This document shows, piece after piece, positions 1 through 9,900 of a DNA stretch of 36,344 nucleotides. The stretch lies in NCBI GenBank assembly GCA_021811615.1, contig JAJZNW010000058.1:1-36344 (forward strand), in the 5' to 3' direction. The position numbers and the translations under genes were made by a program. Numbering within the stretch: position 1 is the first letter of the stretch; each line of letters opens with the position of its first letter. This stretch comes from Bacteroidota bacterium. Its GTDB lineage: Bacteria; Bacteroidota; Ignavibacteria; Kryptoniales; JAKASW01. A model generated the notes under the pieces. It did no database searches. It saw nothing but the letters and a program-made list of their open reading frames with translations, and was not told the DNA's origin.

Positions 1-855
1 AAGTCCGCTATCAGAGAACATCGGTTCGCTCCTCGCATTGGATACCTTGCCACCGACCCAGATCGACACACCGTCGTTCAGCGGATCGTTAAGCTTCATC
101 GCCGGGCATACCGTGTAGCAGTTCGCGCAGAACATGCACCTTTCTTCGATAACTTCCACGGAAGGTAAGCCTTCTATGGTGGCCGGCCTGATGGCTGCCG
201 TCGGGCATGCAGATACGACCGAGGGTATCTCGCACATCGCTTTCAGCTTATCGCGCTCGACTTTGGGAGGCCGGCGGTGAATCCCGAGAATGGCGATGTC
301 GGAACAGTGGACCGCGCCGCACATATTCAGACAGCAGGCAAGCGCTATCCTGAGTTTGCCCGGGAGCTTCATATCCGTGAAATACCCGACGAGCTCGTCC
401 ATCACAGACTTGACGACACCGGACGCGTCAGTCGCCGCCGAATGGCAGTGGACCCATCCCTGTGTATGGACTATGCTCGAAATAGAGTTTCCCATCCCGC
501 CGACCGGATGGCCGAGCGCACGCAGGTCCGCAATCAACGGATCGATCTTCGACGCGTCGGTCACGAGGAACTCGACGTTGTTGCGGCTGGTGAACCTCAG
601 GTAGCCGTCCGAATATTTGTCCGCGAGGTCCGCGTAGGCTCGAATCTTCTCGATGCTCAGAAGCCTCGGCGAGCCGGCCCGAACGGTGTACAGTTTTGCT
701 CCCGTTTCGGACACCGTCACCATGACGCCTGGCTTCAGGATCTCGTGGTATTTCCATTTCCCGTAGTTTTGCTTTATGATAGGCGGCAAAAATTTCTCGT
801 AATGCGGCGGACCGATATCGGTTTTTCTTTGCGGTTTCGGTTGAACTTCAGGCAT
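1..855 (-). CDS. dsrB: Dissimilatory sulfite reductase beta subunit DsrB (3' end beyond window)
   Basis: Beta subunit of the cytoplasmic siroheme sulfite reductase that pairs with DsrA to reduce sulfite, delivering sulfur onto DsrC. The frame is open from an ATG at 855 (SD AAGGAG, 5 nt upstream) to the left edge, giving 285 codons, so roughly the last quarter is missing. Visible motifs are [12 protein letters not shown] followed by [14 protein letters not shown], which supply the Cys ... Cys-Cys-x3-Cys ligands of the siroheme-coupled [4Fe-4S] cluster, and a ferredoxin insert [12 protein letters not shown] (C-x2-C-x2-C-x3-C). It lies downstream of dsrA on the same strand, but across a 166-nt gap that carries a periodic repeat. 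dsrC and other dsr genes, if present, would lie past the left edge. Identity is very secure; direction of catalysis is inferred from DsrA. Confidence 0.97.
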
Positions 856-1021: not shown

Positions 1022-2233
1022 TTAGGGTTTAGGATTTTCTTCAGATTCGTCTTCTTCAAAATATTCTTCATAAAACACGTAAGGGTTCTCCCTCGGATGG
1101 GCGACCATTTCCGGAGTCGGCTCCACGCCGATCGCCTCGAGGAAATTTCCCATCCCGACCCTTTGAATAAATTCGCCGACTCTCTCCCGGTTCTTCCCGT
1201 TCTCCGACCAGACTTCATGAATTTTGTCGACGAGCTCGATCAGCTCGGTGTATGGCGGTACAAGTTTGATGAACGGTATAAGGACCGAAGAGAGAAGAGC
1301 TCCTTCCACGATGGGTGCCTTTGCGCCGATAAGTATGCAGGCACCGCGATCCTTGCCGGGGGCGAGCGCCTTCGGCATGGCGTTTATGCAGTGCATGCAT
1401 TTGACACACGCCTTGTTGTCTATCTTCAGCTTCTTTCCATCCCATTCCATGCATTTCGCCGGACAGTTCCCGACGACATCCTTCTGTATGTCCATCCCTG
1501 CTTTAGCATACTCGGTCACGGCAGCTTCGTCGACCTGGATGTCGTCTCTCCAGGTCCCGATGATCGACATATCCGAGCGCGCGATTGCTGCCACGCAGTC
1601 GTTCGGGCAGCCCGACATCTTGAATTTCCATTTGTATGGAAACGCCGGCCTGTGGAGCTCATCCTGGTAATGCATCGTGAGGAAATAGGTAAGTGCCATA
1701 GTATCGTAGCATGCCCACTCGCACCGCGCCATTCCGCAGCAACAGCTCGGAGTCCTGACGTCAGAACCGGAGCCACCGAGATCGAAACCGAGATCCGTCA
1801 ACTCTTTGAAAGTCGGTTCGAGCTCTTCGGTCCTCGTGCCCAGGAAGACAAGGTCACCGGTGGAGCCGTGCATGTTCGTCAGGCCAGACCCATGCTTCTC
1901 CCATATGTCGCACAGCTTTCTCAGCACGTCGGATGTGTAGAACCATCCAGCCGGCTGGTTGATGCGCATCGTGTGGAAATGAGAAACGTTCGGGAACTCG
2001 TCCGGCAGATCGGAATATCTTCCGATGACCCCGCCACCATACCCGAGCACGCCGACGATCCCGCCATGCTTCCAGTGTCCGATCTTCTCCTCGTAGGAAC
2101 GCTCGAGCTGGCCCAACAAATCGTTAGCCATCGCATTCTTGTCCGCAGCACTCTTTATCTCCTTGACAAAACTTGGCCATTCTCCCTTTTCAAGTTCATC
2201 CAGCTTCGGGGTCTTTCTTTTTTTGTCAGGCAT
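1022..2233 (-). CDS. dsrA: Dissimilatory sulfite reductase alpha subunit DsrA
   Basis: Catalytic alpha subunit (403 aa) of the DsrAB siroheme sulfite reductase. The siroheme-[4Fe-4S] ligands are C165-x5-C171 ([15 protein letters not shown]) and C209-x3-C213 (SGCPNDC). The ferredoxin domain shows NCPAKC near residue 257 and CVKCMHC at 276-282. Segments such as [20 protein letters not shown] and NMHGSTGD match my memory of reductive bacterial DsrA (Desulfovibrio type) better than of oxidative Allochromatium-type DsrA, so I read it as a sulfite reducer. It is slightly shorter than the roughly 437 aa of Desulfovibrio, mainly at the C-terminus. The ATG at 2233 has SD AAAGGAG. A hairpin and a promoter-like element upstream suggest its own transcript, separate from the transposase-like gene. 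No frameshift is seen. Confidence 0.98.
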
Positions 2234-2577: not shown

Positions 2578-3708
2578 TTACTTGACCGGGATCTGGAGCG
2601 ACCTCACCGCAAGCTCGACGACAAAGTTCCTGGTGGCTGGATCGTCGAGAGGCAACCGAAGCGGCCGCGGGAGCGTCCCGCAATTGAAATTTCTGAAGTG
2701 AGTCTCACACGGATACTGAAGATAAAGCGAGAGCCTGCTGAAGCCTATTGGCAGCGGCTCGAGCATCCACCACGCTATCCACGCATTGACCACCGGATAA
2801 GGATCGTATTTAATCATATGAAATTTTTCAAACCTCTTCTCGAAGGCCCCCAGCAATCCTTCAAATCGCGTACAAGGCTGCTGTACCATCCTTTCCTGGA
2901 GACGCTTCAGAAAGTACTCCTTCGAATTCAGAACTATCTGTTTCATGCGCTTGTCCTTGAAAATTACCAGGTAGTCCTCCAGCCTGCACGAACCGTCATT
3001 TATGTGGTCTCTCACCGCCTCAAGAATCAACTTCCGGGTATCGAACGAGTGGCTCAGTTCTTCCTTCAGTTGTTTGTCGTAACATGTTCTCGTGAAATTG
3101 TGAAGGGTCTCGGAGTACGGGAATACGACCTTCAGCGCATCTTCGACCACCTTGAATCCATAGGACATGAAAGTGGGACAGGCAAATCCCCTGCAATTCA
3201 TCCTGTCAAGCAAGGACAACCAGACATTCTCAGATTCGCAATCGCCGATCTCGAACCCGAGCACGACAGTCGAGAGGGCGTCTATCGCAAGCGCGAGATA
3301 CATCGAATGCTCGCTGCTGTCGCTCACCTTCGCTTTGAATTTCTTCCCGACAAGATGTATGAGGCGCGATTCATGCTTGGGAGTACAAGCATCCAGGTAT
3401 TCCTCCCACGATGAACAACCTGCCAGGTATTCCCTTATCTTCTGATTGATCCTGATGGGAGAACTTCGAAATATCGATCTCAAATCTCTGTAGGAACTGC
3501 CGTTGAGATAAGATTCCGCCAAAGCTCCGACATCTGGACCCGGCCTGCTGCAGCCGTTCTTTACCCAGGTCCTTTTACAGGAGAGACATCTGTAGCGAAG
3601 AGTATTCGCCGAAGTCCTTCCATGCTTCACTATTCTCGAACTGCGACAGAAAGGACAAACCTGACGGGTTTGAGTCTCCAACAATTCCGTTGGCAATTGT
3701 AATGTCAT
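2578..3708 (-). CDS. IS256/Mutator-like transposase homologue with missing catalytic residues
   Basis: 376 aa. The N-terminus is a zinc ribbon (CPFC near residue 18, CLSC near 43), followed by a probable helix-turn-helix and a core resembling IS256/MULE transposases: LGFEIGDCESENVWLSLLD, then a segment ending EDALKVVFP, as in the family pattern LGfwlG.ESa.fW...L and sDGl.Gl.eAi..vFP. By this by-eye alignment the first Asp position reads HLVGKKF rather than xxDATYf, and the second reads MSYGFK rather than xSDGLK, so two DDE carboxylates appear lost although the frame is intact. The ATG at 3708 has a strong SD (GGAGG). It separates the membrane complex from dsrAB. I saw no clear terminal inverted repeats or target duplication. 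It could be a decayed insertion, a domesticated DNA-binding protein, or a family that I have misaligned. Confidence 0.6.
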   Translation of the reverse strand: MTLQLPTELLETQTRQVCPFCRSSRIVKHGRTSANTLRYRCLSCKRTWVKNGCSRPGPDVGALAESYLNGSSYRDLRSIFRSSPIRINQKIREYLAGCSSWEEYLDACTPKHESRLIHLVGKKFKAKVSDSSEHSMYLALAIDALSTVVLGFEIGDCESENVWLSLLDRMNCRGFACPTFMSYGFKVVEDALKVVFPYSETLHNFTRTCYDKQLKEELSHSFDTRKLILEAVRDHINDGSCRLEDYLVIFKDKRMKQIVLNSKEYFLKRLQERMVQQPCTRFEGLLGAFEKRFEKFHMIKYDPYPVVNAWIAWWMLEPLPIGFSRLSLYLQYPCETHFRNFNCGTLPRPLRLPLDDPATRNFVVELAVRSLQIPVK

Positions 3709-4226: not shown

Positions 4227-6140
4227 TCACTTAACGCCCGGGACCGGCGTCGGAAGAACTACGTTGTCAAAACGCGGCAAGGTAACATCCCACTTCATTC
4301 CGGCCCTCAACCCCGGGGGTGTCCCGGTTCGATGACATGTCGAACACAGCGCTAGATTCGGCTTGTCTTTTAGTACTCGCGATTCAATTGTATGACACGA
4401 CACGCACAGCTTATGCATAGCGTCGACGTAGGACGGTATAAAGTAGGCGTCCGCGCCATTTCCCGCCGTGTCCGCGAAAGTGTAGGACGGGTGACATCCG
4501 GTACACTTCCTGGCCGTCTGCGCTGTCCTGGTCTCGCCGGGAGTGTGGCAGTCGTCGCACTTAAGATTGGCACCGCTGCTGGAGGCATGCCAATCGTGCC
4601 TGAAGAAATCGACTTCACTGTACATGCTCGTGTGACATTCCCAGCAAATGCTCAGTTTCTCTCCGGGCAGATTCAGATGATGGCAGACGAGACAGCTGTC
4701 CGCTCCAGTCCGGAGCACATAATGTATGCTGTCTAATGTCATCGACGATATCTTGCCGTTTCGCATCCAACCGATATGAGCCTGATGAGGAAACTCGACA
4801 TATTGGCTGTCCCTGTTGCCGTTGATGCAGAGCGTATCGATCCCGCTCGCCGGACGAACTGTCACGTTCTCGATCCCTTCGGCGTGAAGTTTCTTCCCGG
4901 AGATCAGGGCCATCCCTATCGCAAAGCTGATCACGAAGGCGAGAGTATGTCTTGTCAAAGCGCTCGTCTTCGGATTGCCGAGCCAGGCACCGGAGACACG
5001 ATCGAAGAGAGGAGGAGTGTGAGCAAGCGCTTCCGGATCGCGCGGCTGGATATCCCAAACGTGGAAAGTCTCGATAAGGAAAATGAAGACCAGCGCCGCC
5101 GTCGAAAGAATGCCGATGCTCAGAACGACCTCCATCCAGGACGGAGTGTACCACAACGTCGCATCGCGCATCGCGAAGCCACCGATGTCTATCCTGTTCA
5201 GCACAACACCGAGGATTCCTATCGATGTCCCTATCCACTGAACCTTTCGATTCGCGCACCACTTCGGCACAACGAACATGACGAAAGGAATGACTGTCGA
5301 CAGAAGCAGTTCACCGACATACAGGTAGCTCCTCCAGCTACCCTCGAACAGGAGACCGACCTTCCCCTCCAACACAACATCCCCGATCTTCACAAGGAAG
5401 TACAGACCGAGTATCCACACACTGAGGCTGCAAAGCAGGCGCACCAGATCTGTTTCCAACTTCCGGCGGTACATCCAGTGGAGTGCCAGCGTCTCGAAAG
5501 CGAGCATCAGGAGTCCGCCCGCAATCGCAGAAATGAAAAACTCGATGGGGATTATGTGCGAATAGAACAACGGGAACAACCGCCGCGGCATGATGAGGAA
5601 TAACGTTCCAAGTGAGGATTGGTGCAAAGTTGAAAGCATTATTCCCAGAAGGACTATCGGGAAACGAAATTTCAGAAGGAACTTCCTGACGGCAGCGTAA
5701 CGGCTCGTACTTTCAAGCGGGACGGGGAGAAGCTCGAGCACCAACACCGTTGTATAAAGCATCACGCACCACCCCACTTCGAAAAGCGGCGAGTGCGGGT
5801 TCCAATAGATTATCATGTGCCATATGTTCCAGGGAAGCCCGAGGTCGAATATCAGGCTTACAACGAACGAGCTGTAGCCGAGGAATGCGGTCAGTATCGC
5901 TATCCTGACGAGAGAGTGGAACTTCTCGCGCTTCATCATATAAAAGATGGCACCTATTACAAATCCACCCGCGGACAAAGCGACCCAGCTGAGTTTGAAA
6001 CCGATCCAAAAACCCCATGGCACTTCGTCGTTCAGGTTTGTGGTCGCACCCAAACCGAAGACGAACCTATTGAGCGCAATAGCCGCTGCCAGCCCGGTGA
6101 TCAGCCAGAGGACGATCTTCGTGTTATGAACCCTATTCAT
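4227..6140 (-). CDS. HybB/NrfD-type quinone membrane subunit fused to a hexahaem cytochrome c
   Basis: 637 aa in two parts. Residues 1 to about 380 form a HybB-type member of the NrfD superfamily with about ten membrane helices (beginning KIVLWLITGLAAAIALNRF), the part that exchanges electrons with menaquinone in DsrP, HmcC and HybB. An eleventh helix (about 398-416) would place the C-terminus in the periplasm. That domain carries six CxxCH haem sites: CLVCH 483, CWECH 499, CDDCH 528, CTGCH 546, CVSCH 579, CSTCH 599. Extra histidines such as FPHQAH and FFRHDWH are candidate distal ligands. DsrP and DsrJ (or HmcC and HmcA) are normally separate proteins; here one frame covers both, with no sign of an internal junction error. 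Its ATG overlaps the HybA-like gene by 8 nt (ATGAATAG), implying translational coupling. The role in a DsrMKJOP/Hmc-like complex is inferred from context. Confidence 0.85.
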   Translation of the reverse strand: MNRVHNTKIVLWLITGLAAAIALNRFVFGLGATTNLNDEVPWGFWIGFKLSWVALSAGGFVIGAIFYMMKREKFHSLVRIAILTAFLGYSSFVVSLIFDLGLPWNIWHMIIYWNPHSPLFEVGWCVMLYTTVLVLELLPVPLESTSRYAAVRKFLLKFRFPIVLLGIMLSTLHQSSLGTLFLIMPRRLFPLFYSHIIPIEFFISAIAGGLLMLAFETLALHWMYRRKLETDLVRLLCSLSVWILGLYFLVKIGDVVLEGKVGLLFEGSWRSYLYVGELLLSTVIPFVMFVVPKWCANRKVQWIGTSIGILGVVLNRIDIGGFAMRDATLWYTPSWMEVVLSIGILSTAALVFIFLIETFHVWDIQPRDPEALAHTPPLFDRVSGAWLGNPKTSALTRHTLAFVISFAIGMALISGKKLHAEGIENVTVRPASGIDTLCINGNRDSQYVEFPHQAHIGWMRNGKISSMTLDSIHYVLRTGADSCLVCHHLNLPGEKLSICWECHTSMYSEVDFFRHDWHASSSGANLKCDDCHTPGETRTAQTARKCTGCHPSYTFADTAGNGADAYFIPSYVDAMHKLCVSCHTIESRVLKDKPNLALCSTCHRTGTPPGLRAGMKWDVTLPRFDNVVLPTPVPGVK

Positions 6141-6903
6141 GTGTGGAATCCTCTTTCTTGCTTTTCTCCTCGCTCAACTTCATTCTTCGCTTGATAATCC
6201 AGCTGAGTCCGAGCATGACACCGCCCATGCCGAAGAAGGCGTACGGGACCGCATCCATAGCAGGCGAAGTCTCTTTCGGAAGGGGCATGTCGACTGGACG
6301 GGTTTGATACGAAAGGAAATCTAGATCGATATCGGAGATATAAAGCACCGAGGTCCCGCCGACTTCGCTTTCTCCCCAGACCCTGTCTATATACTTTCCA
6401 GGATGTTCTCTAATTCTCTTGTGGGCTTCTTTCAACAGAGCATCCCGATCGCCGAAGATCGTGGCGTGCTCGGGACACGACTCCGTACACGCAGGCTGTT
6501 TGCCCTCTTTAATCCTGTCGTAACAAAGGATGCACTTCTCGACATGAGGCACGGTCTGGTCCCAATCGTAGCGGGGGATACCGAACGGACATGCCATCAT
6601 ACAGTAACGGCAGCCCATGCACTTTGCGCTGTCGTAAATCACCGCGCCTATTTCAGTCTTATGCAATGCGCCGACGGGACACACCGACACGCAAGCCGGC
6701 TCGAGACAATGACGGCATTGCTTCCGGACATAATGGTCGCCAGGCTTCTGTATGATCGAAGTCCAGTTTTCAGCTGACAATCCGTCGTTCTTGTCCCAGA
6801 CTCTCGGCACATCCGCTTCGAGGTGATTCACCTCTTTGCACGCCTCCACGCACTTAAGGCAGCCGATACATTTAGTGACATCAGTCAGAATAGCTTTGCT
6901 CAA
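6133..6903 (-). CDS. HybA/HmcB/DsrO-like ferredoxin subunit with C-terminal membrane helix
   Basis: 256 aa, with four ferredoxin-type Cys groups: CIGCLKCVEAC (12-22), CRHCLEPACVSVCP, CMGCRYCMMACPFG and CILCYDRIKEG...CTESCP. This is the layout of the four-cluster electron-wire subunits HybA, FdnH, HmcB and DsrO. A single hydrophobic helix near residues 215-235 is followed by the basic tail KRRMK. Unlike typical DsrO and HybA there is no N-terminal Tat signal; the protein begins MSKAILTDVTKCIGC. The start is TTG at 6903, supported by SD GGGAGG five nt upstream. It is coupled by overlap to the HybB-cytochrome gene and probably passes electrons between the haem domain and the quinone module. The side of the membrane it occupies is uncertain. 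Confidence 0.88.
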   Translation of the reverse strand: MSKAILTDVTKCIGCLKCVEACKEVNHLEADVPRVWDKNDGLSAENWTSIIQKPGDHYVRKQCRHCLEPACVSVCPVGALHKTEIGAVIYDSAKCMGCRYCMMACPFGIPRYDWDQTVPHVEKCILCYDRIKEGKQPACTESCPEHATIFGDRDALLKEAHKRIREHPGKYIDRVWGESEVGGTSVLYISDIDLDFLSYQTRPVDMPLPKETSPAMDAVPYAFFGMGGVMLGLSWIIKRRMKLSEEKSKKEDSTHE

Positions 6904-6996
6904 AGTGGCCTCCCGTTTTCGTACGCCACGAATTCCATGGAGGACGAAACAGTTTTGTAGTATTGATACTCATTGACATGCCTGGAATGAGAAATA

Positions 6997-7036
6997 GTCA
7001 TCCGTTGTCATTCGTTGTCATCCGTTGTCATTCGTG
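6997..7036 (+). repeat. Four tandem 10-bp units, left of the four-helix-bundle gene
   Basis: Four exact-length decamers, GTCATCCGTT, GTCATTCGTT, GTCATCCGTT and GTCATTCGTG. The stop codon of the adjacent gene lies inside the array. It is the inverted counterpart of the array at 7419-7458. Confidence 0.85.
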
Positions 7037-7401
7037 GGACTCGCGGTTTTGCCGATGGACTTTATGTAATTGTTTAGTTTTACACCCAAGGTTTCCAGGT
7101 CATCTCCGAGATTCAGATAAGCTTTTTCTTCAATCAGTTTTCTGTCGAATGATTTCTTCAGCCAGGTCTTCGTCTCCGACAGCGAACCTCTCGAGTAGTA
7201 ACAGAATTGTTCGTTTTCCTTATAGAAATATCTTCCGAACCCTTCGCTGATGTTTGCGGCAACAGAATCCGCTGCTCTGGTAAACTGCTTCCCAATAGTA
7301 TCCTTTTCAAAGTAGGTCCAGCTCGCCACCACATCCCAGATCCTTTCTCCCATGTCCATGGCAAGTTGATACACCTGCAAATCGTCCAGTTTCTTCGGCA
7401 T
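7018..7401 (-). CDS. Four-helix-bundle protein (23S rRNA IVS-encoded family)
   Basis: About 127 aa, helical, with the family signature DLQVYQLAMDMGERIWD at the N-terminus and FTRAADSVAANISEGFGR in the middle, as in the four-helix-bundle/IVS family (TIGR02436 type). Relatives are encoded inside 23S rRNA intervening sequences or free in genomes, and related Avd proteins serve retroelements; no enzymatic activity is known. I prefer the ATG at 7401 (upstream GAGGTGA) over an in-frame TTG at 7434, because the latter lies inside the flanking repeat array. The gene sits between the NarI-like and HybA-like genes of one complex and is bracketed by inverted 10-bp repeat arrays, so it looks inserted. 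It probably plays no part in electron transfer. Confidence 0.85.
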   Translation of the reverse strand: MPKKLDDLQVYQLAMDMGERIWDVVASWTYFEKDTIGKQFTRAADSVAANISEGFGRYFYKENEQFCYYSRGSLSETKTWLKKSFDRKLIEEKAYLNLGDDLETLGVKLNNYIKSIGKTASPTNDNG

Positions 7402-7418
7402 CCTGCTCACCTCATGTT

Positions 7419-7458
7419 TATTAGTGACGACCAATGACCACCAGTGACCATTAGTGAC
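7419..7458 (-). repeat. Four tandem 10-bp units, right of the four-helix-bundle gene
   Basis: TATTAGTGAC, GACCAATGAC, CACCAGTGAC and CATTAGTGAC. Each unit ends in TGAC at a strict 10-nt step. In reverse complement the units begin GTCA, like the left array, so the two arrays are inverted relative to each other around the gene. Confidence 0.85.
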
Positions 7459-7490
7459 TTCTTGTATATCTCTCTATCTCGCACACTTTC

Positions 7491-8192
7491 TCATTTGAAT
7501 CTGTATAGTGTTTCCACTATTTCCTGGTCCGTTGCCGGAGGAAATTTCCAGGCAAGCGCATCTACGATCTGGGAAAACGGGGCAAGCACACAGTGAGCTA
7601 TTTTCGTAAACGGTATAAGCAGAAATATCAAATCACCCGAAAGAACATGTACGAGCATCAGAAACCGGTACAGCCCGGCACTGATGTTCAGATTCGCACA
7701 TACAAATCCAGTTATGAATGGGAAGAGAAGTAGAACCAACCAGAAGTAATCCTGGCCGCGGCTCAGCGAATGTATCGATTTCACGAACAAACGCTCGATG
7801 AGGAGAACGGCGGCAAAACACATCGTGCTTATGGTCAGCCAGAGGGCCCACCGGAACGGAAGCGCGGGCCATGAAATGCCGACCGCCTTTTTCCAGAGAC
7901 CGATATGTGCGAATAGGAATACCGGGACGACGATCAACCCGATATGGAACAGTATGGAGGCTATGGAATACAACTGTGGGTTACGTGAGACCCGTTTGAC
8001 GGGAAATGCCCACTCGAGGCTGCGGCGCACAATCAGTCTCCAGGGCATTTTCTTGTCGCCTGCTCTCCGGTAGGCTCTGTATGCCTCCCATAGATCGAGG
8101 AACAGTATGCGTGCCAGTCCGAGAAGCATTATCATCAGACAGAAGCGAAAGAGCGGGCCGCGGGCGAAATGCAGCAGAGATTCCATGCTCAC
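7491..8192 (-). CDS. NarI/DsrM/HmcE-like cytochrome b membrane anchor
   Basis: 233 aa, almost entirely membrane-embedded with about five to six helices, for example FCLMIMLLGLARILFLDLW, SIASILFHIGLIVVPVFLF and MLVHVLSGDLIFLLIPFTKI. Histidines in helices (FHIG, LVHVL, KIAH) are candidate haem b ligands, as in the NarI family. Related subunits DsrM, TmcC and HmcE oxidise or reduce menaquinone for an HdrD-like partner. The length fits HmcE/TmcC (about 225 aa) better than DsrM (about 330 aa). The start is either GTG at 8192, overlapping the upstream stop by 4 nt, or ATG at 8186; both follow the same GGAGGGG. The immediate partner is the HdrD-like protein encoded upstream. Confidence 0.85.
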   Translation of the reverse strand: MSMESLLHFARGPLFRFCLMIMLLGLARILFLDLWEAYRAYRRAGDKKMPWRLIVRRSLEWAFPVKRVSRNPQLYSIASILFHIGLIVVPVFLFAHIGLWKKAVGISWPALPFRWALWLTISTMCFAAVLLIERLFVKSIHSLSRGQDYFWLVLLLFPFITGFVCANLNISAGLYRFLMLVHVLSGDLIFLLIPFTKIAHCVLAPFSQIVDALAWKFPPATDQEIVETLYRFK

Positions 8193-9685
8193 TTCCCCTC
8201 CCCGTCCGAAGGCCGGCCTTGACCGTTCTTGACCTGGTCTACCCCTTCTTCTTGTTCCACTTTTAACGAGTCGTCGAATTCGATGGCTTTGTAAATCAGG
8301 TCGTGGAATCCGACAACGCGGCAGTTGAGTCCCTGGTCTTCGACAAGTTCACGGAGCTGCTTTTTGCAGTTTGCGCAAGGCGCCACGAGTATCTCGCATC
8401 CGGATTTCCTGATTTGGTCGGCCTTCAGCTTCCCGCCTATCGTCGTCCTGTAGGGCCTTATCTCATCGATTGACACCGTACCGCCGCCTCCACCGCAGCA
8501 AATATTGTCTTCACCTTTCGGGGTCATCTCGACGTAATTTCTGCAGAACGACCTAAGGACTTCCCGCGGCTGATTTACGATCCACCTGTTCCTGGCAAGA
8601 TTGCACGGATCATGGTACGCGACTTTCTCTGTAACGACGTCGGGGTTGAGCTTCAGTTTACCCTCCTTCCACACTTTGTGAGTGTACTCCAGGATGTTCA
8701 TCACCGGTAACGAATCGCTGCCGCCGCAAAACGTCGGGAGGAAATTCTTAGCCGTGCGTGACGCGTGGCCGCATTCTCCTATCAGAACCCGCTTCCCGTT
8801 AAGTCTCCTTGTTTCACTGTCGACCTTCTTAATGACCCTTTCCATGATCCTGTCATTGTAGAAGAGGCCGTAATTGATCGCGTCGAAATCTTCAGTGCCG
8901 ATGGTCCAAGAATCGCCTGTCGCGGCAAAGACCGACGCAATCCCCATGAGAGTGTCAGCTTCCATCAGGTAATCGCTGACAGGGGCGAAGAAGACGTAAT
9001 CGCTTCCTTCGACATCCGTCGGGAATTTTATTCTCACCGATTTCTCTTCGAACATGTCGTCTTCGAGAAATTCCAGCGTGTCTTTCAATGCCGGGACCGG
9101 CACTGCGGACGTGTTGTGGTACGGGCCTTCTAACTGTGCCCGCACGCTTACGACTAGAGCCCTCGGGACAATACCTATTTCGCTCAGTATGTAACGGCCG
9201 AGATGCGTAATAAGGCCGTGGTCTAGTCCAAGCGGGCACTCAAGCGCGCATCTCCTGCATGCGGTGCAGTTGTAAAAGCTATCCGCCATTTCTTCTATCT
9301 TCTCGTCCGTGAGGTATCCGGCTCCTGTCACCCGCCCCCTGACCATGCCTCCGAGTGTGAAATGGCGGCGGTAGACGTCGAGAAGCAATCCGGACCGGTA
9401 ACAAGGGATGTCCTTCGGATCGCCGGTTGCCTGATAAATATGACAGGCGACCGCACACCTGGAACATCTCGCTGTCATGCGGATGAAATGATCGAGGACC
9501 ATTTTGTAATTGGAGTGCTTGAGTATTGCAGCGAACGCCTCCAGGAAGCGGCGAGGGCGGTCGCTCACATCGAAATCCTCGACGTGATACCTGACATTCA
9601 GCTTCTGCCTCTCGATCACTTCCGGTTTCTTAATTGTTGCGAGAGCTTTTTCGCGCTCCTGATCGGTTATGACGGTAGTTTTCAT
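8189..9685 (-). CDS. HdrD-like iron-sulfur oxidoreductase (DsrK/HmcF/TmcB type)
   Basis: 498 aa, cytoplasmic, no signal peptide. Residues 74-95 hold an atypical ferredoxin motif, C74-x2-C77-x3-C81 with the next Cys at 95 (DIPC). Residues 140-150 hold a regular one, CTACRRCALECP. The C-terminal half carries a CCG domain: HDPC, 34 residues, ICCGGGGG, 39 residues, CANC, the fold that binds the noncubane [4Fe-4S] cluster of HdrD and DsrK. DsrK proteins are proposed to act on the DsrC trisulfide or disulfide, which fits a locus with dsrAB. The start is ATG at 9685 with SD GGGA; the longer TTG start at 9700 has none. It is the first gene of the membrane-complex operon, and element B lies about 180 nt upstream. 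Confidence 0.88.
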   Translation of the reverse strand: MKTTVITDQEREKALATIKKPEVIERQKLNVRYHVEDFDVSDRPRRFLEAFAAILKHSNYKMVLDHFIRMTARCSRCAVACHIYQATGDPKDIPCYRSGLLLDVYRRHFTLGGMVRGRVTGAGYLTDEKIEEMADSFYNCTACRRCALECPLGLDHGLITHLGRYILSEIGIVPRALVVSVRAQLEGPYHNTSAVPVPALKDTLEFLEDDMFEEKSVRIKFPTDVEGSDYVFFAPVSDYLMEADTLMGIASVFAATGDSWTIGTEDFDAINYGLFYNDRIMERVIKKVDSETRRLNGKRVLIGECGHASRTAKNFLPTFCGGSDSLPVMNILEYTHKVWKEGKLKLNPDVVTEKVAYHDPCNLARNRWIVNQPREVLRSFCRNYVEMTPKGEDNICCGGGGGTVSIDEIRPYRTTIGGKLKADQIRKSGCEILVAPCANCKKQLRELVEDQGLNCRVVGFHDLIYKAIEFDDSLKVEQEEGVDQVKNGQGRPSDGEGK

Positions 9686-9860
9686 TTGTTCCCTGTGCAA
9701 TAGAGATTTAGACCTGGCGAGATGCCTTCCCCCCGGAGGATGATTTCTGAAATCGAAGATCGATTCTCAATGTTTATCGCTGCAACATTCACTTCTCGTT
9801 CGTACGAAAGGTTGCAAGAAATTAGAGTCGGGTGGAATTAGAAACAAAGAATGGGAGGTT

Positions 9861-9900
9861 TATTGTATCCGGGATGTGTCTTCAAGCCGTCCGAAACGGC
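9861..9900 (-). promoter_or_regulatory. Promoter-like element B upstream of the HdrD-like gene
   Basis: The plus strand reads TTGTATCC at 9863-9870, continuing CGGGATGTGT. Element C matches this 18-nt stretch with one mismatch; element A shares the core and also GAAACAA and GGAGG blocks to its left. A small inverted repeat GCCGT/ACGGC (9886-9900) lies beside it and may instead end the upstream 122-aa gene. The roughly 300-nt gap 9686-9985 holds nothing else that I can support. Confidence 0.4.

Follow-up and report, generated by a model that had tools for sequence, protein, structure and literature searches.

On a contig of a Bacteroidota bacterium (GenBank assembly GCA_021811615.1, contig JAJZNW010000058.1), next to the genes for dissimilatory sulfite reductase, dsrAB, a single reading frame joins a membrane quinone protein of the NrfD family to a cytochrome c with six CxxCH haem-binding motifs. 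The locus, analysed within a window comprising the whole stretch of 36,344 nucleotides, raises the question of whether such a join is genuine and, if so, what a cytochrome tied to a quinone site might do in a sulfate reducer. Comparison with relatives indicates that the join is real, old and retained in several phyla. The fusion gene stands last in what the gene order shows as an operon, or module, with three other redox genes encoding a DsrK-like subunit (K hereafter), a cytochrome b and an Fe-S protein. It is read here, with moderate confidence, as encoding the subunit that combines quinone site and cytochrome in a compact four-protein membrane complex of Hmc-like make-up, which would join periplasmic cytochromes, menaquinone and DsrC.

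The preliminary description of this DNA had reported a 637-residue frame with ten HybB-type helices, an eleventh helix and six CxxCH sites. Reading frame, motifs and AlphaFold2 model all agree with that account and place the gene, unbroken, on the minus strand, for which no strand had been given; the observation is thus confirmed, and next to dsrAB a quinone protein of the NrfD family and a hexahaem cytochrome c do form one chain. A sequencing error joining two genes had been named as a possible pitfall, to be recognised by a start codon with a Shine-Dalgarno sequence near residue 395. In-frame starts are found between residues 375 and 420 (TTG at 395, GTG at 403, ATG at 410), none of them, by eye, with a clear Shine-Dalgarno sequence at the usual distance, so the join stands. 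Among 80 homologous quinone-domain open reading frames (ORFs) gathered without regard to haems, 48 carry exactly six CxxCH behind the domain, 31 carry none and one carries three; the window is counted twice among the 80, and hence in the 48, and the distinct unbroken six-haem fusions number 47, window included. The ratio of nonsynonymous to synonymous substitution rates (dN/dS) is 0.054 and 0.058 for the window fusion against two other copies, with two further pairs saturated and yielding no ratio. With 47 such fusions in one clade and these low dN/dS values, the probability that a sequencing or assembly error merged two genes is practically nil, and this explanation was ruled out. One broken fusion, its haem piece bearing seven CxxCH, is found in genome G408.

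A search of open-licence papers, covering titles, abstract starts and passages, returned no account of the fusion, which is not proof of absence. The portions seen of PMC6338057, PMC10591310, PMC8076601, PMC10504309, PMC6303296, PMC3534657, PMC5317091, PMC7509429, PMC13047784, PMC10924467, PMC4215793 and PMC13059093 do not describe it.

The quinone half had at first been assigned to PF14589; its actual match is PF03916, NrfD, at 49.9 bits (cut-off 25.8). Among NCBIfam models, residues 8-363 score 250.7 bits with HmcC, 221.9 with HybB, 126.9 with QrcD and 34.0 with DsrP, each value under the respective cut-off (550 for HmcC, 350 for DsrP), and HmcC matches all 18 fusions scanned. AlphaFold2 places ten helices across residues 2-358 and the eleventh at 390-412, a hydropathy scan recovers the same helices and one weak segment, and the first Foldseek match of the model is chain C of alternative complex III (7.0e-7). 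Relative to E. coli HybB, the equivalents of Y99, S129, E148, H184 and R329 are invariant in 47/47 fusions and that of R89 is R or K in 46/47, while the D58 position holds D in 40/47, N in four and K in three. The NrfD fold and the functional residues, bar D58 in 7/47, place the domain in the HybB/HmcC/QrcD branch of the NrfD superfamily. The three lysines belong to the window protein (Lys49), the second copy in the window genome and the protein of the close relative G010, all one residue shorter at this point. In the sections seen of PMC13059093, QrcD Asp70, the equivalent of HybB D58, is essential, and a HybB D58A variant loses quinone reduction and retains H2 evolution. By alignment, then, the fusion family keeps the proton and quinone residues, yet the window clade has altered one of the most important.

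Within the haem regions, the only histidines kept in at least 80% of sequences are the six of the CxxCH motifs and six others, all twelve invariant in 47/47; the sequences compared here had been chosen for bearing at least six CxxCH, and the set gathered without preselection gives the same count of six. Twelve invariant histidines are enough for six bis-His haems, and each haem is predicted to be of this type, which would suit the domain to conducting electrons along a haem chain, not to catalysis. The domain matches profiles of the 16-haem cytochrome 1z1n (9.5e-18, over several stretches), the nine-haem Nhc (1.3e-8) and HmcA (9e-8), the last in 17/18 fusions scanned. PF02085, Cytochrom_CIII, matches at 36.5 bits (cut-off 22.9) and, together with the twelve invariant histidines, assigns the domain to the class III cytochromes c; in profile comparisons, the haem half thus resembles the 16-haem cytochrome, HmcA and NhcA. 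In the AlphaFold2 model of the full protein the membrane part is usable and the haem domain lies mostly below 50 in predicted local distance difference test score (pLDDT); modelled alone the domain fares worse (mean 43.2), and no claim is therefore based on haem geometry. No further multihaem ORF is present in the fusion operons read; at locus L049 an ORF with ten CxxCH lies 3 kb downstream on the opposite strand.

Haem attachment requires a periplasmic cytochrome domain. Assuming ten-plus-one helices, loop lysines and arginines have medians of 17 inside and 3 outside, with inside exceeding outside in 18/18 fusions, and this bias places the haem domain in the periplasm.

The distribution of the fusion was followed in the window's class, in the phylum of G104, a Calditrichaeota metagenome-assembled genome (MAG), and in the phylum of G109, a Myxococcota MAG. 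At least 17/391 genomes of the class encode it, one of them (G308) in a copy cut at a contig end, as do at least 9/377 in the phylum of G109, both counts being lower bounds because the top three candidates per genome were scored. In the Calditrichaeota phylum it occurs in 18/39 genomes, seven of which also have a divergent paralogue with a split match; G402 and G411, cut by contig ends, and the broken G408 are excluded from the 18. A search of genome contigs with the fusion protein as query, which reveals close relatives only, gave 19 loci, 16 of them full-length and several from genomes also in the class and phylum sets. The best ten of 15 plasmid records are at most 31% identical in the quinone half only, and none covers 80% of the query.

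In a rapidly built tree with 79 quinone domains (the duplicate window row dropped; HybB, DsrP and L061 as long branches; no Desulfovibrio HmcC included), the 47 six-haem rows fall on one side of a branch with a Shimodaira-Hasegawa-like approximate likelihood ratio of 99. The fusion state changes once, against a shuffled mean of 25, in a count that leaves out the three-haem row L140, entered as unfused in its table. L140 (G771) falls among the unfused rows, and the quinone-haem join therefore seems to have arisen at least twice. Its gene, also read as L158 (G771:C326), encodes a 577-residue protein with an NrfD quinone domain and three CxxCH in the C-terminal part, and has as neighbours a gene for an Fe-S protein and an ORF in which CxxCH occurs eleven times.

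On the minus strand the order is DsrK-like gene, cytochrome b, 23S-rRNA-IVP protein, Fe-S subunit, fusion, transposase-like gene, dsrA and dsrB. K scores 282 bits with DsrK (cut-off 400), 210 with HmcF (cut-off 750) and 205 with TmcB, and its HdrD-type cysteines are invariant in the 25 sequences read; the cytochrome b scores 117 with TmcC and 103 with HmcE (cut-off 275). The Fe-S subunit reaches 247 bits with HmcB, below cut-off, and has 16 cysteines conserved in 43-44 of 44 sequences, the single gap being a contig end; it is predicted to carry four [4Fe-4S] clusters.

Because the gene directly adjoins dsrAB and the best score of K is with DsrK, the fusion might be taken to stand for DsrJ and DsrP in a rearranged DsrMKJOP, which would then be the only partner of DsrC in the membrane. 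The contig of G010 makes this very unlikely. There, enolase, the module, the transposase-like gene, dsrAB, a CobB/DsrN-like gene, a gene named dsrL by position, dsrC, dsrMKJOP, two genes with Qmo-like domains, sat, aprB and aprA follow one another, and dsrM (452 bits, cut-off 300), dsrK (734, 400), dsrJ (155, 100), dsrO (291, 200) and dsrP (465, 350) all pass their thresholds, DsrJ with three CxxCH and DsrO with an N-terminal twin arginine. With the canonical complex in the same island, the fusion does not replace it. DsrP is also over cut-off in 14/18 genomes tested that have both fusion and dsrA (not in G005, G007, G311 and G105), the fused quinone domain itself reaches 251 bits with HmcC and no more than 34 with DsrP, and canonical DsrK rows split from module K with support 100, the module rows grouping with support 84. 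A DsrP-DsrJ fusion in place of DsrMKJOP was accordingly rejected, and the idea of a Dsr component, raised at first sight of the gene, gives way to a complex that, judged by gene content, stands beside DsrMKJOP as Hmc and Tmc do in Desulfovibrio.

The link to sulfate reduction is statistical as well as positional. Co-occurrence with dsrAB, put forward earlier as a check, is borne out in both groups where it was tabulated, by Fisher values that take no account of genome kinship or shared ancestry. In the class, dsrA is over cut-off in 21/391 genomes; at least 15 have both genes, two the fusion only (G260, G345), six dsrA only (G188, G219, G230, G277, G288 and G332, the last with a match at 3.0e-48 in an unlisted row) and 368 neither (1.6e-20; without the cut G308, 14/2/7/368 and 7.6e-19). 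In the Calditrichaeota phylum, 17 have both, one the fusion only (G435), two dsrA only (G407, G413) and 19 neither (5.8e-8); counting G402, G408 and G411, otherwise under neither, as fusions gives 17/4/2/16 and 1.7e-5. For the phylum of G109, the dsrA test covered G109 itself. Within the window's genus, dsrA is over cut-off in 7/7 fusion genomes and 0/6 others. In a set of 27 genomes, aprA passes its cut-off in all 18 tested that have fusion and dsrA; neither aprA nor DsrP does so in G260, G345 and G109, which have the fusion without dsrA, and both do in the six genomes that have dsrA but no fusion. DsrC passes its threshold in 15/15 fusion genomes with dsrA, as well as in G102 (the genome of L041, whose coordinates match G260) and the unfused G004, and a pattern search for the two-cysteine terminus of DsrC returned an ORF in 5/5 loci examined.

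Loci without K offer a natural counterpart. In the phylum of G109, K is present at L145, L152 and L153, while L146, L147, L148 and L151 contain cytochrome b, Fe-S subunit and fusion with no K in over 5 kb of upstream sequence; L149 and L049 likewise lack K, in loci cut by contig ends. In the Calditrichaeota phylum, L155 (G402) and L156 (G408) show no K within roughly 4 kb upstream. All six cytochromes b from K-less loci of the G109 phylum have lost His83 and His200 and kept His96 and His182; L155 has lost the same pair and L156 His200 alone. Across two phyla the ligand pair is therefore missing in 7/8 K-less loci and half missing in the eighth. By NarI numbering, this pair would hold the haem nearest the cytoplasmic partner. 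Its joint loss with K is the pattern expected if electrons pass from cytochrome b to K. No dsrA over cut-off was found in the K-less genomes tested (G109, G402, G408), nor DsrC over cut-off in G109. At L156 (G408:C10:17000-29000) the Fe-S and fusion genes are in pieces, in a genome without dsrA, which is perhaps module decay or else draft errors.

These observations can be assembled into a mechanism. The periplasmic haem domain would exchange electrons with soluble periplasmic cytochromes and deliver them, probably via the Fe-S subunit, to menaquinone at the NrfD domain, where cytoplasmic protons would be taken up during quinone reduction as in Qrc. The quinol would be oxidised by the two-haem cytochrome b, and K would reduce the trisulfide or disulfide of DsrC. 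By fixing the cytochrome at the quinone site, the fusion would make docking of a separate HmcA unnecessary, and the complex would serve as a second electron entry to sulfite reduction beside DsrMKJOP. The sequences show the parts, gene order, cofactor ligands and co-occurrence with dsrA; we infer the partners, the direction of electrons from periplasm to DsrC (which may be reversible), the proton uptake and DsrC as the substrate of K.

Electrons may instead run outward, from menaquinol or from reduced DsrC or thiols into the haem domain, to feed extracellular or periplasmic acceptors or to support sulfide oxidation or disproportionation. Members without K exist and some fusion genomes lack dsrA, and a precedent is found in CbcL of Geobacter, in which a quinone-linked b domain is fused to a multihaem cytochrome c. 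The lysine of the window clade at the QrcD Asp70 position could also favour quinol oxidation, as HybB D58A still evolved H2 (PMC13059093, seen in part). Against these points stand the strong tie to dsrA and aprA and, in the passages seen of PMC6303296, the action of the relatives QrcD, HybB and, by proposal, HmcC as quinone reductases. Outward flow is on this evidence unlikely, though of real weight.

A second alternative concerns the Fe-S subunit, which may lie in the cytoplasm and link K to the quinone domain, in a topology unlike that of Hmc and with the haem domain serving a periplasmic quinone site alone. A signal for twin-arginine translocation (Tat) is absent in 17/20 fusion-linked Fe-S subunits, which start at most 22 residues before the first cluster and have no twin arginine; in the other three (L008, L044, L049) the open frame extends upstream and the start is not fixed. 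The window protein aligns only from position 36 of the HmcB profile, 40 of HybA and 45 of DsrO. The unfused Fe-S partners of the class are likewise not flagged, and at L023 and L060 they adjoin membrane-anchored GcvH-like proteins, an assignment made by Pfam for L023 only. Telling against a cytoplasmic position is the tail helix at the C-terminus, which ends in RR/K in the manner of HybA-type proteins anchored by their tails in the periplasm; moreover, a signal-less, tail-anchored Fe-S protein has been proposed to hitchhike with a Tat partner (PMC10924467, in the part seen). On balance the cytoplasmic arrangement is improbable. Loss of the Tat signal as a hallmark of fusion was considered and rejected, unfused relatives in the class being unflagged as well. 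Those at L023 and L060 are HmcC relatives paired with a signal-less Fe-S protein, the L023 pair flanked by two GcvH-like proteins; by eye, a sensor-kinase-like ORF lies downstream at both loci and a response-regulator-like ORF at L060. Their gene content possibly points to a redox-sensing membrane system.

Several observations count against the four-protein, Hmc-like complex as an electron entry to DsrC. None of the four module proteins reaches the NCBIfam cut-off of these families, and the window clade (3/47) has lysine where QrcD Asp70/HybB Asp58 is needed for quinone reduction. The Fe-S subunit lacks a Tat signal, and none of the operon genes was seen to encode a Tat-borne partner. Full-length fusions occur without dsrA over cut-off in G260, G345, G109 and G435, and G260 nonetheless retains K (L041), while the G345 fusion stands without its partner genes over 14 kb of sequence. 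In the class, six genomes with dsrA have no fusion among the matches listed, and the blindness of the Fisher values to kinship, mentioned above, bears on the co-occurrence itself.

The features of the locus are collected in the table below.

Table. Features of the fusion locus and adjoining dsr genes, in window coordinates
Feature	Position	Strand	Basis
Fusion, HmcC/HybB-type NrfD quinone protein with C-terminal hexahaem cytochrome c, 637 aa	4227..6140	-	ORF, Pfam, NCBIfam, AlphaFold2
Quinone domain, residues 1-363, ten helices	5052..6140	-	NCBIfam, AlphaFold2
Eleventh membrane helix, residues 390-412, takes chain to periplasm	4905..4973	-	Hydropathy, AlphaFold2, K+R count
Hexahaem domain, residues ~440-603	4332..4823	-	CxxCH, invariant His, profile matches
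CxxCH 1, residues 483-487, then invariant His488	4680..4694	-	Motif
CxxCH 2, residues 499-503	4632..4646	-	Motif
CxxCH 3, residues 528-532	4545..4559	-	Motif
CxxCH 4, residues 546-550	4491..4505	-	Motif
CxxCH 5, residues 579-583	4392..4406	-	Motif
CxxCH 6, residues 599-603	4332..4346	-	Motif
HmcB/HybA-like Fe-S subunit, 16 conserved Cys (predicted four [4Fe-4S]), C-terminal tail helix	6133..6903	-	NCBIfam, alignment
TmcC/HmcE-like cytochrome b (NarI family), four candidate haem-ligand His	7491..8192	-	Pfam, NCBIfam, alignment
K, DsrK/HmcF/TmcB-like cytoplasmic subunit, HdrD-type CCG cysteine set	8189..9700	-	Pfam, NCBIfam, alignment
dsrA, 586.6 bits (cut-off 392.85)	1022..2233	-	NCBIfam
dsrB, incomplete at window edge	1..855	-	NCBIfam
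Transposase-derived gene between fusion and dsrA, kept in genus	2578..3708	-	Family scan
23S-rRNA-IVP four-helix protein, small, between cytochrome b and Fe-S genes	7018..7434	-	Family scan

Some neighbouring features are of separate interest. The transposase-like gene, of the IS1/IS256-type zinc ribbon type, adjoins the dsr island and is present in 11/11 dsrA-positive genomes tested in the class, in single copy except for two copies in the window genome (G000), which has two islands; the G259 gene is 44% identical and lies 26 kb from dsrA. It was found in 0/7 dsrA-negative genomes of the class and in 0/2 dsrA-positive genomes of the other phylum. A recent insertion was rejected on account of the single copy per island and purifying selection (dN/dS 0.03-0.05 in four comparisons); the gene looks domesticated and is perhaps a dsr regulator. 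Among the loci tabulated, the 23S-rRNA-IVP gene occurs in the window and L037 only.

The two dsr islands of G000 (C1, the window, and C39, L053) encode proteins 87-97% identical, with synonymous divergence (dS) of 0.56-0.93, consistent either with an old duplication or with two species binned together. Between window positions 4263-9883 and L037 (G002), identity is 92% for K, 87% for cytochrome b, 90% for the IVP protein, 83% for the Fe-S subunit and 66-67% for the fusion. The fusion being far less identical than its operon neighbours, recombination within the operon is likely. An 82-residue DsrD candidate at L053:3696-3944 matched no DsrD model, and it is so named by position.

Taken more broadly, and held tentatively as a possibility, one ancient event that joined an HmcA-like mini-cytochrome to HmcC may have founded an unnamed family of compact transmembrane complexes that is a main door between periplasmic carriers and DsrC/DsrAB in sulfate reducers outside Desulfobacterota (Bacteroidota-type and Calditrichaeota). 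Such a complex would be a complete redox loop of four proteins, comprising haem wire, menaquinone, b haems and disulfide reductase, and those lineages of two phyla from which the disulfide reductase and a ligand pair of one b haem have disappeared would have turned to other use. Even for Desulfovibrio, the way electrons reach DsrC across the membrane is a matter of debate, and knowledge of sulfate reducers elsewhere comes mainly from draft genomes. A conserved four-gene complex with its cytochrome tied to the quinone site offers a small target for testing whether complexes of the Hmc/Tmc type feed menaquinone, DsrC or both. The fusion also provides a marker whose occurrence follows that of dsrA in two phyla, and members lacking K and one b-haem ligand pair are its natural control.

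Comparison with known systems places these features in context. The DsrOhPh-tetrahaem locus of cable bacteria also has, next to a Dsr pathway, an NrfD-family protein paired with an Fe-S protein and accompanied by a small multihaem cytochrome, but as separate polypeptides, with a tetrahaem cytochrome, a DsrP-like clade and, in the passages seen, no K or b subunit (PMC13047784). TmcABCD shares c3-type haems, an HdrD-like subunit and the closest relative of the cytochrome b, TmcC, and in D. alaskensis is proposed to pass periplasmic electrons towards DsrC; according to the part seen of the same source (PMC4215793), Tmc has no NrfD-like subunit. QrcABCD and HybAB of Hyd-2 have in common with the fusion the quinone-domain residues tested in QrcD and HybB, save Asp58 in the window clade, but draw on a separate cytochrome (QrcA) or hydrogenase as donor and contain neither K nor cytochrome b. 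CbcL likewise combines a quinone-linked membrane domain with multihaem c, though that membrane domain is a dihaem b and not NrfD. DsrMKJOP resembles the module in its HdrD-type K cysteines, four-cluster Fe-S subunit, NrfD-family subunit and association with dsrAB, and differs in its separate, triheme DsrJ and distantly related DsrP (34 bits), besides being encoded additionally. The closest parallel is Hmc (HmcABCDEF) of Desulfovibrio, which has Fe-S, HybB-like quinone, NarI-like b and HdrD-like subunits, a cytochrome, HmcA, that the haem domain resembles, and a place alongside DsrMKJOP in sulfate reducers. Unlike the module, Hmc has a separate HmcA with 16 haems rather than six joined to an HmcC-like domain, and an HmcB with a Tat signal, absent from the HmcB-like subunit here although the C-terminal tail is shared; K scores higher with DsrK than with HmcF, and the cytochrome b higher with TmcC than with HmcE. 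The compact complex is thus best described as a variant of the Hmc type.

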